This document shows positions 12,985-19,049 of a DNA stretch of 64,000 bases, one piece after another; the first letter of the stretch is position 1, and each line of letters begins with the position of its first letter. The notes under the pieces are model-generated. The model was not told where the DNA came from. It did no database searches and saw only the letters and a list, made by a program, of their open reading frames with translations. The position numbers and the translations under genes are program-made. The DNA is from Phycisphaerae bacterium (GTDB lineage: Bacteria > Planctomycetota > Phycisphaerae > Phycisphaerales > SM1A02): NCBI GenBank assembly GCA_016795065.1, contig JAEUIU010000016.1:1-64000 (forward strand), read 5' to 3'.

Positions 12985-13112
12985 CTCCTTGAGCGAGCAA
13001 GACTTCGCGCGGATCACTCAGCATTTGCGCGAGCTTCGCACTTTTTCCGGAACCTGTCTGGGTATTGGTCTCGTCGGTCTGGATCTGGATCTTGTCAGGA
13101 TCTATGTCTGAA

Positions 13113-13137
13113 TCTGGACACCCACATCCTGAAGATC
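13113..13137 (+). repeat. Forward end-motif copy A outside the element
   Basis: TCTGGACACCCACATCCTGA starts at 13113, 45 bp before the element's own left end and in the same direction. It may be a remnant of an older copy or a second recognition site. Confidence 0.65.
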
Positions 13138-13157
13138 TTCGGCGAACGACCCCTCCG

Positions 13158-15079
13158 ATTTTGGACAGCCACATTCTGAACATCGCGTGGACGGTTTGGT
13201 GATCGCGCACTGCGGCGACCCGCTGGCGGAATCGGCCAGTTTCGCGGGAGCGCCGCCGCAGCGCGGTAGGCTCGGGATGGCCCCTTGGGCGGGGCGTCGC
13301 GCCGGCTTGGAGGAAGAGCGAAGAGTGGGTTACGCACGGCATCTCACCGTCCCGCAGGACGAGGGCGGCATCTTCCATTGCTTCTCGCGCTGCGTCCGCC
13401 GCGAGCGGCTCCTTGACGCGCCCGACCGTCCCGAGCTTCTCGAGCGGCGGCTTGCCTTCCTCTCCACGAAGGTCTTCGCCGTCGACCTCATCGAGTTCAA
13501 GACGATGGGCAACCACGTCCACGTCATCGTCCGCACCCACCCGGAACTGACCTGGTGCTGGACCGCCGAGGAGGTCGCCCGCCGGTGGCTGCGGCTCTCG
13601 CTTGCCGGACGCCGGCCCGATCTTGACGAGGGGGAGGAACCCGGCGACGCGGCCGTGGCCGCCCTTGCCGCCGACGCGCCCCGGATCGAGGAGCTCCGGC
13701 GGCGCCTCGCCGACCTTGGCAGCTACCACTCGGCCTGGAAGGAGTGGGCAGCCAAGCGATGGAACAGGGAGGACCGGGTGTCGGGACACTTCTGGGAGGG
13801 CCGCTACGGGCTGACGACGCCGCTGGACGAGGGCGCGGTCCTGTCCCAGTCGGCCTACGTCCTCCTCAACGCGGTGCACGCGGGACTGGAGCCGGAACTG
13901 GGGATCGGCACGCCGGGCTCGCTCAGGACCAGGATCAGGAGGCTGATGCGGGAGATCGGCCAGCGGGCCGAGCGCGACAGCGAGTTCGACCGGGACTTCG
14001 TTCACGCGTCCTGGACGCCGGTCTATCCGTGCGATCCCGGATCGGCGAGCGGACTCGATGACGAGGAGTATGCGAAGCGCGTGGCGGCGGGGCGGCATCG
14101 CGCGTCGTTCCGGGCCGCGTTGCGCGAGGAGGCACGCGAGCTCTCGCGGCTCTCGCGCGACGGCGAGGCCGACGAGGTGGAGCGGCTGGCGAGGGAGCTG
14201 CGCGACCAAGGCGGTGCCGGAGAGGCCGGGACGGCGACGGCATCCGAACCCAAGCCCGTCCGACGGCGGCGTCCCCGGAACGTCCCCCGCCACCGGTCGC
14301 GTCGGGAGGCGGACGCCGCGCCGTGGACGCGACTGCGGCGCGACGAGAGCGCCTGGCGGACCGGGCGACCGAATCCGTTCTCGCCGACGAGGCTCGTCCG
14401 CGGCGCCGTGCCGGTGATGCCGGGCGTGACGCTCGGGATGTTCATCGCCTTCACCAACGAGGAGGGAATGCATCCGAGGCCGGACAAGCGGGGCTCGATC
14501 GCGCCGGACGCGGAGCACGCGCTGGTGAGCCTCCGCCAGCTGGTCACGGCAGCCGGGCCCGACAGGCAGCCCAACGAGCGGCGGACCGATCCCGCGCCCG
14601 GGGAGCCCGTCATCGATCCGGGCATTCCCGACCCGCCGGCGATCGCCGCCGCGAGGCGGCTCGCCGCAGCGATGCGGGACGGATTGGCCGCGCTCCTGGC
14701 CCGCGCACGTGGGCGGGCCGGCGGCTGCGAAGGGGCCGCCGCGGGACCGCTTCCCGTCCGCCACCGCGGCACCGCAATCGGCTCGGAGGAGTCGCTCCGG
14801 AACGAGGCCCTCCGCCGACGGGGAACGTGTGTGCACTCGGCGCGGGCGACGCTGCGCGAGTGACGCGGGCGAAGGCGGCATCGTGTCGCGACAAGCGAGA
14901 GCCGGATCCGGTGCGACTGATCTCACAACGGCGGTCGGGCCGTGGCGCGCCCTGAGAGCCGCACAATTGGTCGGCAGCCCGCAACAAGGTCACGCGCAGA
15001 GCCCAAATCCTGCAGGAAGCGACATGTCGGCTCCCCCCAGCCTTCCCGAATCACCGCACAATGTGGGTGTCCAAAATGC
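13158..15079 (+). mobile_element. 1.9-kb element with inverted end motifs and a Y1 (HUH) transposase
   Basis: The left end reads ATTTTGGACAGCCACATTCT (13158). The right end, read on the other strand, is ATTTTGGACACCCACATTGT (15078 downward). The two ends are thus an imperfect inverted repeat of about 20 bp. Inside lies one transposase gene. About 140 bp next to the right end recur at 16376-16518, and a 31-bp stretch from the transposase 3' end (14837-14867) recurs exactly at 17455-17485, which shows that deleted copies exist nearby. Classical IS200/IS605 elements have hairpin ends rather than inverted repeats, so the organisation is closer to REP sequences served by a REP-associated transposase. 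The exact cleavage points are not known. Confidence 0.7.
13325..14863 (+). CDS. Y1/HUH transposase, REP-associated (RAYT)-like
   Basis: The N-terminal 130 residues match the IS200-like Y1 transposase fold: an opening strand ARHLTVPQDEGGIFHCFSR, then the HUH metal motif in KTMGNHVHVIVRTHP. Later RVSGHFWEGRY and AYVLLNAVHAGLE match the RAYT block whose tyrosine probably attacks DNA. These enzymes cut and join single-stranded DNA. At 512 residues the protein is much longer than usual (about 160-330), with an insertion after the HUH motif and a long Arg/Pro-rich C-terminus of unknown role. GTG 13325 is preferred because GGAGG lies about 11 bp upstream and homology starts at once; ATG 13277 is an alternative. 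Confidence 0.75.
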   Translation: MGYARHLTVPQDEGGIFHCFSRCVRRERLLDAPDRPELLERRLAFLSTKVFAVDLIEFKTMGNHVHVIVRTHPELTWCWTAEEVARRWLRLSLAGRRPDLDEGEEPGDAAVAALAADAPRIEELRRRLADLGSYHSAWKEWAAKRWNREDRVSGHFWEGRYGLTTPLDEGAVLSQSAYVLLNAVHAGLEPELGIGTPGSLRTRIRRLMREIGQRAERDSEFDRDFVHASWTPVYPCDPGSASGLDDEEYAKRVAAGRHRASFRAALREEARELSRLSRDGEADEVERLARELRDQGGAGEAGTATASEPKPVRRRRPRNVPRHRSRREADAAPWTRLRRDESAWRTGRPNPFSPTRLVRGAVPVMPGVTLGMFIAFTNEEGMHPRPDKRGSIAPDAEHALVSLRQLVTAAGPDRQPNERRTDPAPGEPVIDPGIPDPPAIAAARRLAAAMRDGLAALLARARGRAGGCEGAAAGPLPVRHRGTAIGSEESLRNEALRRRGTCVHSARATLRE

Positions 15080-15198
15080 CCCCAGTGGACTTGGCCATCC
15101 TCATCGGTGCGTGGGGAGGTTCAAGCGCAGACCTCGACGGCGACGGGGTGGTTGGCGCCTCGGACCTCGGCATTCTGCTCGGTGCGTGGACGAGCTGA
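15080..15198 (+). pseudogene. Fragment of a dockerin-type gene fused to the element's right end
   Basis: Directly after the right end motif the sequence encodes VDLAILIGAWGGSS, then ADLDGDGVVGASDLGILLGA and a TGA stop at 15196-15198. This is the end of a dockerin-like domain, as in the intact genes at 10590 and 24230. The frame is continuous with the ATG inside the end motif (15061), so a 45-residue peptide could be made. The rest of the parent gene is not on the left side of the element, so it was probably lost or the fragment was carried in. Confidence 0.75.
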
Positions 15199-15221
15199 GG
15201 CGACCGGTTGGACTGAGGCGA

Positions 15222-15291
15222 CCGCCGACGGGGAACGTGCGGCTGATGTTGGAGACTCGCAGTCTGAACATCCAATGTGGGTGTCCAAAAA
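15222..15291. repeat. Remnant copy of the element's 3' part and right end
   Basis: CCGCCGACGGGGAACGTG at 15222-15239 equals 14814-14831 near the end of the transposase gene. TCTGAACATC, as next to the left end, is then fused directly to CAATGTGGGTGTCCAAAA (15273-15290). It looks like an internally deleted copy. Confidence 0.65.
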
Positions 15292-16368: not shown

Positions 16369-16518
16369 GCATTTCGGACGGTGGCGTGCGCCGAAAGTCG
16401 CACAATTGGTCGGCAGCCCGCAACAAGGTCACGAGCGGGGCCCAAATTCAGCAGGTAGCGACATGTCGGCTCTCCCCGGCCTTCGCGAACCCCCGCACAA
16501 TGTGGGTGTCCAAAATGC
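16369..16518. repeat. 150-bp non-autonomous copy of the element
   Basis: It starts with GCATTTCGGAC, a damaged left end, and ends with CACAATGTGGGTGTCCAAAA (16496-16515). Bases 16399-16433 equal 14960-14994 exactly (35 bp), and the rest aligns with the last 140 bp of the full element. It holds no gene. Confidence 0.75.
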
Positions 16519-17312: not shown

Positions 17313-17338
17313 AGTTTGGACACCCACCTTCTGAGCAG
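17313..17338 (+). repeat. Forward end-motif copy F1
   Basis: AGTTTGGACACCCACCTTCT follows the hypothetical gene by 90 bp and has the same direction as the element's left end. Between it and the next copy at 17430 lies about 90 bp without a gene. Confidence 0.65.
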
Positions 17339-17429: not shown

Positions 17430-17707
17430 ATTTTGGACAGTCACATTCTGGATCTCGGCGCGGGCGACGCTGCGCGAGTGACGCGAGCGGGAGCTGACAT
17501 GGCGGAGGGCGGAGGGACAGAGTGACAGACGGGCGCTGGCGGGCGCGGTGGCGCGCGCCCAGATCCGCCGAGAGCCGCAGGAAAGCAGATCGCGAACCAA
17601 GCAACGTCACGGGCAACGTCACGGGCAGGCCACGGATTCCGGCGGAAACGGCCTGTCGGATCCCCCGGCCGTCACGAAACCACGCACAATGTGGGTGTCC
17701 AAAATGC
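17430..17707. repeat. 278-bp deletion derivative of the element with both ends
   Basis: The left end ATTTTGGACAGTCACATTCT (17430) is followed by a 31-bp exact match to the transposase 3' end (17455-17485 equals 14837-14867). A diverged subterminal part follows, with a doubled CAACGTCACGGG (17604-17628), and then the right end CACAATGTGGGTGTCCAAAA (17685-17704). It is a typical internally deleted copy that an intact transposase could move. Confidence 0.75.
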
Positions 17708-18570: not shown

Positions 18571-18595
18571 AATTTGGACAACCACATTCTGTGTC
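18571..18595 (+). repeat. Forward end-motif copy G1
   Basis: AATTTGGACAACCACATTCT begins 12 bp after the preceding stop codon. It resembles the element's left end at most positions. Confidence 0.65.
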
Positions 18596-18621
18596 CGTTC
18601 TCGACCGCTGGGAACGCAGTA

Positions 18622-18668
18622 GCATTTTGGACAGGCATAAGCATGCACAATGTGGGTGTCCAATCTGC
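18622..18668. repeat. Minimal 47-bp back-to-back pair of end motifs
   Basis: GCATTTTGGACAGGCAT (18622) is followed at once by the inverted motif GCACAATGTGGGTGTCCAAT (18645). The two ends nearly touch, so the whole unit can fold into a hairpin. The ATG in the right motif (18650) is in frame with the next small gene. Confidence 0.7.
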
Positions 18669-18920: not shown

Positions 18921-19000
18921 TACCTTCTTGTCCCGCTCCCCGAAATCCCCTCGCAATCCGGCTCTGAGTTCGGTGGAGAAATTCGCGGTCTCCGGGGGCT

Positions 19001-19049
19001 CAGTTTGGACAGGCATAGACCGCGCGCACAATGTGGGTGTCCAAAATGC
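19001..19049. repeat. Minimal 49-bp pair of end motifs
   Basis: CAGTTTGGACAGGCATAG (19001) faces the exact right end motif CACAATGTGGGTGTCCAAAA (19027-19046), with about 8 bp between them. It has the same design as 18622-18668. Confidence 0.7.

Follow-up and report, generated by a model that had tools for sequence, protein, structure and literature searches.

The window analysed here comprises positions 1 to 64,000 of the forward strand of contig JAEUIU010000016.1, from the 4.99-Mb draft genome of a Phycisphaerae bacterium (SM1A02; GCA_016795065.1, G000 below). It holds a gene for a Y1/HUH transposase framed by inverted repeats and, downstream of it, a series of shorter sequences related to these ends (Table 1). 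The terminal repeats, 21 nt long and 90% complementary according to a repeat finder, both carry ATTTTGGACA[G/C]CCACATT[C/G]TG; the outer edges of the 1920-bp element read ATTTTGGACA on the left and TGTCCAAAAT on the right. The initial annotation had reported inverted 20-mers agreeing at 18 of 20 positions, and we find exactly these at 13158-13177 (+) and 15058-15077 (−); it had set the right end at 15079, two bases beyond the actual one at 15077. No tnpB was seen next to the transposase gene.

Table 1 Features of the transposase locus and of the related sequences around it, in window coordinates.
Feature	Position	Strand	Remarks
Outer degenerate left unit ATCTGGACACCCACATC	13112-13128	+	Motif search
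Whole transposon, very probably TIRYT-type	13158-15077	+	1920 bp, TIR to TIR; inverted ends and border comparison
Left terminal unit ATTTTGGACAGCCACATTCTG	13158-13178	+	
Y1/HUH transposase, 512 aa, GTG start	13325-14863	+	HUH residues 64-66, Tyr178
Right terminal unit, reverse complement ATTTTGGACACCCACATTGTG	15057-15077	−	
Mini-element, ~46 bp, degenerate left unit and right unit	15245-15290	.	Fold z −2.72
Right-end fragment	16374-16516	.	87% identical to 14935-15077; left unit weak or lost
Solo left-type unit TTTGGACACCCACCTT	17315-17330	+	Left-end similarity reaches 17342
MITE-like derivative, internally deleted, 276 bp	17430-17705	.	
Mini-element, ~95 bp, two ends pair mutually	18572-18666	.	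Fold z −3.54
Mini-element, ~46 bp, partial left unit and right unit	19002-19047	.	Fold z −2.28

Both borders are backed by copies. On the left, DNA similarity between the window and a paralogue of the same genome (C18) sets in at 13155, a point three bases beyond the left unit, and the two sequences are unrelated farther out. On the right, three downstream repeats, 16374-16516 (87% identical), 17614-17705 (76%) and 19025-19047 (100% over 23 bases), each end at the base matching 15077. Since similarity stops at these points on either side, we place the element at 13158-15077. No target duplication or direct repeat is visible in the window sequence beside 13158 and 15077. No empty site was found, the insertion region being without a syntenic counterpart in the single same-genus genome compared (G001). 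The right flank contains a shortened dockerin-like reading at 15086-15199 (DLAILIGAWG...DLGILLGAWTS, followed by a stop), the 5' part of which is absent from the left flank; the insertion site has therefore probably been rearranged.

The terminal sequence recurs beyond the two ends. With up to three mismatches, the 17-mer TTTTGGACACCCACATT occurs at 11 sites in the window, where 0.05 are expected and none of 100 shuffles gave as many; all 11 are confined to 13.1-19.05 kb. The 16-base form TTTGGACACCCACATT, with at most one mismatch, has 20 sites genome-wide (0 for the reversed control). Outside the 13.1-19.05 kb stretch the repeat lies beside paralogues and also where there is no transposase. 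Exact matches of the 17-mer in GTDB contigs were 14 lone, scattered sites in unrelated phyla, which we took as chance. At least one neighbour of the element, 17430-17705, is an internally deleted, MITE-like copy: it joins the left 21 bp (95% identical), 36 bp around the transposase stop codon (97%) and the right 93 bp (76%). Between 15274 and 19050, single mini-elements stand between genes, and their right unit often stops shortly before the next gene; AAAATGCCCC gives an ATG at about 17704 and 19046, and TIR (terminal inverted repeat) remnants may provide start codons or leaders in this stretch. An integron-like cassette array was considered for 15-19 kb and dropped: most right-facing units are paired with a left unit, as mini-elements would be.

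Seven further matches to the protein exist in the same genome. Most of them break off where a contig stops, a pattern to be expected when a multicopy element is assembled to draft level. The closest, that of C18, is an open frame 92% identical over residues 1-246 and a fragment at a contig end; the next best fragment reaches 76%. Three direct units, 27-29 bp apart, lie on the left of the C18 copy, three units in the opposite direction lie on the right of another (C62), and the outer units differ among copies. The source genome has no identical full-length copies of the element that would show recent movement.

The open reading frame, 13187-14863, encodes 558 residues from its first GTG and 512 from the GTG at 13325, which is the most likely translation start because homologues begin there. 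H64, H66 and Y178 are invariant in 32 of 32 aligned homologues; the loss of these residues in all homologues, which the initial annotation had named as a refutation, is not seen. Two copies of another genome (G020 L085 and L086), outside this alignment, have lost both the HUH and the catalytic Tyr; their DNA is about 99.8% identical, and they have nonetheless moved or been duplicated recently, perhaps mobilised in trans. The window protein matches Pfam Y1_Tnp below the cut-off, 28 of the 32 homologues at E 0.01 or better; its match to NCBIfam REP_Tyr_transpos is weak, as it is in 31 of the 32. No helix-turn-helix was found in the tail, Pfam on the 32 proteins giving Y1_Tnp plus one stray DUF2972 only, and peptide patterns revealed no close relatives in GTDB contigs.

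No solved structure could be found by sequence search. The AlphaFold model (mean pLDDT 78, largely of low confidence after about residue 295) has its best fold match in 4er8, TnpA-REP with DNA (Foldseek E 1.2e-3; Z 11.4, rmsd 2.3 over 146 residues), the comparison that the initial annotation had suggested; IS200/IS605-type HUH structures match it at Z about 8 to 9. The insertion announced for this very long protein of 512 residues is also present in the model, as helices 81-128 between the strand that carries the HUH (64-71) and the core helix 131-149. The motifs of the window protein are NHVH, WEGRY and YVLLNA; the majority consensus of the 32-protein alignment reads WEGRFKS, YVDLNPVRAG and TS. 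The HUH appears as NHLH or NHFH in other homologues and as NHYH in several gamma-proteobacterial relatives. The insertion is common to the gamma-proteobacterial relatives, and those with NHYH reside on plasmids of Alteromonadales and Vibrionales.

To our knowledge, hairpins are what all HUH transposases examined to date recognise. IS200/IS605 elements have subterminal imperfect hairpins, insert next to a fixed tetranucleotide and make no target-site duplication; RAYT genes are flanked by GTAG-tagged palindromic REPs. For the left and right ends of the window element, predicted DNA folding is not more stable than in shuffled sequence (z 0.91 and 0.01, respectively). In a paired-arm test on 230 units, stems of at least 5 occur in 20.4%, versus 15.7% with shuffled arms and 20.4% with arms swapped within the family; a hairpin at each unit was thus rejected as a general feature, being barely above shuffled arms and equal to the within-family swaps. 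Suggestive single hairpins are CGCAAGA...TCTTGCG (G022) and AATTG...CAATT (G017). Three mini-elements of the window fold beyond shuffles (z −2.3 to −3.5), and two of them, 18571-18668 and 18999-19048, have ends that pair with each other. Because the ends fold like shuffles and the units have no general stem, the ends belong neither to the hairpin type of IS200/IS605 nor to the REPs, and they carry no GTAG tag; the initial annotation was right to separate them from both.

Of 101 genomes searched, 9 besides the source genome hold homologues, which share about 23-41% identity with the window protein, and 36 genes have usable flanks. These flanks hold units specific to each family, with the core GGACA[CG]nCA; examples are AGGGACAGGCACG, TGGACACACCCG, AAGACAGGACAGGCAC, CCGAAAGNGGACACACACTCGG and TTCGGACACGCA. 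In 21 of the 36 genes, GGACA[CG] faces inward on both sides (shuffle mean 2.45, maximum 8), and over all 36 it is found 118 times inward (65 upstream, 53 downstream) against 28 outward (17 and 11). The remaining 15 genes do not have the strict core on both sides; some homologues without it, those of G001 for example, use other units. The reversed control motif is also somewhat in excess in these flanks; it occurs within the units (GGACAGG), which probably accounts for this. A relative from Photobacterium has GGGACAGGCA units on both sides, one from Vibrio upstream.

Genome-wide, GGACASRCAC exceeds its reversed control in six of the ten gene-bearing genomes (G000 111/19, G017 141/13, G022 136/25, G020 107/37, G059 70/4 and G012 77/32), whereas in the other four (G001, G024, G027 and G088) this 10-base core is little or not enriched. 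Where no gene was detected, the ratio is near 1 in 13 of 14 genomes, the exception being G014 (38 to 16). In G059, the 70 sites accompany a single transposase fragment at a contig end, and the repeats may persist after their enzyme is lost or be located far away from it. G017 contains scattered arrays that have no transposase, each made of 2-6 direct units spaced 22-34 bp apart. A 2.3-kb copy in G020 is 99.1% identical at two places; the wider family has therefore moved recently. In G088 (L088, 3412-6347), two near-identical TIRYT copies stand in tandem, surrounded and separated by dense GGCCTGGACACCG arrays.

Solo arrays also precede the metH gene shared by two congeneric species, with identical orientation in both: in the source genome on C77 (L145, 5867-6100) and in G001 on C92 (L144, 4520-4745). 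Each is built of its own unit, GGACAGCCACATT in G000 and CATAACGATGTGTGGC in G001, where CATAACGATGTGTGGC also flanks a transposase (L063). As G001 has just a handful of such loci, the shared location looks unlikely by chance; it reflects either an insertion hot spot or the turnover of an old array. We considered the G001 locus as an empty site for the C77 array and rejected it, since it holds an array of its own.

In 2013, Di Nocera et al. reported tyrosine transposases lying between terminal inverted repeats and named them TIRYTs, the elements being called TIRtrons (PMC3733652). Their TIRs form moderately abundant repeat families, occurring as dimers or clusters, in which the motif GGGGWSAS is common, not universal (PMC3733652). 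The window gene resembles them: it encodes a Y1 protein with HUH and Tyr and sits between terminal inverted repeats instead of REPs, and its TIRs form a dispersed family, 20 sites in the genome, with arrays. The published motif is close to the GGGACAGG/GGGACAC of homologues; the window unit TTGGACAC, however, fails its first two G, and several homologues have GGGACAG or AGGACAG. The 512-residue protein moreover exceeds the median length of every published subclass, and the ends are often multi-unit arrays. Altogether, 13158-15077 is very probably a TIRtron, with one Y1 HUH transposase gene between inward-facing GGACA-core units, and we hold its identity as a TIRYT element with good confidence.

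Quentin et al. placed these TIRYTs mostly in TnpA-Y1 subclass 2.1, also in 2.2 and 2.5, and detected nothing resembling REPs for 2.1 and 2.3 (2018, PMC6006769). Subclass 2.3 is marked by a β3-αC insertion of ~55 residues, W-E, YVDLNP, T-S after the core, NHYH, a long C-terminal tail and members in Alteromonadales (PMC6006769). The window protein shares the insertion of about this size, W-E, T-S and the long tail; YVDLNP is found in most homologues, and there are Alteromonadales relatives. It differs in its HUH (NHVH for the published NHYH), in YVLLNA and in a tail of about 300 residues. Because the HUH is not NHYH we stop at the term 2.3-like and do not place it in 2.3 itself; this likely assignment rests on features and not on the published tree. 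As most of the listed features agree, it is a branch of the known tree. Of the distinct branch that had been suspected, a long-protein branch with an insertion is what stands; it is not apart from the known tree, and TIR-flanked Y1 genes have been known since 2013. The published work gives no repeats for subclass 2.3, whereas GGACA units are present in the window and beside the relatives from Photobacterium and Vibrio; since the TIRYTs were assigned to 2.1, 2.2 and 2.5, TIRs on 2.3-like genes are a modest extension. What is new is the longer protein, the array-like ends and the probable link between 2.3-like proteins and TIRs.

With RAYT/TnpA-REP of E. coli (4ER8), the window system shares the core fold with HUH and Tyr, a low-copy gene and dispersed cognate repeats, partly in inverted pairs. 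Its units are GGACA-cored, in contrast to GTAG-tagged palindromes, and its insertion and long tail are absent from the 165-residue 4ER8 chain. The IS200/IS605 elements IS608 and ISDra2 have in common with it the HUH and Tyr catalytic core; the window ends are instead inverted repeats without subterminal hairpins, and the protein is more than three times longer.

Three other readings were weighed. The nearest solved fold, the low-copy dispersal of the repeats and the REPIN-like folding of some window mini-elements into whole hairpins would suit a REP/RAYT system, with the units as degenerate REPs and the gene as a RAYT that has been domesticated and spreads REPINs. The absence of a GTAG tag and of a hairpin in single units, the several paralogues and fragments per genome, and the published lack of REP-like sequences for subclasses 2.1 and 2.3 (PMC6006769) make this highly improbable. 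We also regard it as very unlikely that the units are a pre-existing preferred target of the transposase, outside the element, with the gene merely among them: solo direct arrays without a transposase and the variation of outer units between copies could be so explained, but shared sequence starts at the innermost left unit and runs inward, up to 143 bp inside the unit is common to the right ends, and unit orientation on either side is inward (118 to 28). The unit sequence is moreover particular to each transposase family, as is the case where an enzyme recognises its own ends.

The third reading, a decayed relic in which the window copy is immobile and its units mere remnants, is compatible with a TIRtron, and we consider it rather unlikely. 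In its favour are the many fragments, deleted derivatives and diverged ends, and the truncation of the dockerin-like coding sequence on the right flank. The 512-residue frame is nevertheless open with HUH and Tyr intact, the 92%-identical C18 fragment is open as well, and the 2.3-kb G020 copy is nearly identical at two places.

For the TIRtron reading, a mechanism can be proposed by analogy. Both TnpA-IS200 and TnpA-REP form a 5'-phosphotyrosine when they cut single-stranded DNA, and they choose the site through a guide (PMC8266576). For TIRYTs, which lack the hairpins read by other HUH transposases, we found no biochemistry in the literature. Single-strand cutting is a reasonably likely mechanism here too. 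The enzyme would bind the GGACA unit in single-stranded DNA, for instance on the lagging-strand template, cut beside it through a 5'-phosphotyrosine link and then join the ends, the two element ends being united by end-to-end pairing of the inverted units. It could move the full element, also deleted MITE-like copies and perhaps single units. Tandem arrays would result from repeated insertion at or beside existing units, or from strand exchange between units. The insertion and long tail may help to read a non-palindromic unit, in place of the hairpin recognition of TnpA-REP and TnpA-IS200.

More tentatively, and with less than even confidence, we suggest that this 2.3-like Y1 branch reads short non-palindromic GGACA units without a hairpin, that it builds and spreads head-to-tail arrays, that recognition resides in the insertion or the tail, and that unit and protein turn over together. 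Such joint turnover would fit the metH gene, where two congeneric species have different arrays, each of its own type.

About 36 genes with matched, family-specific units, together with many solo arrays, pair a short DNA word with a protein, and with the collected set one can directly test whether a Y1 enzyme recognises DNA without a hairpin. Cognate repeats are now attached to proteins resembling a subclass that had been reported without any.
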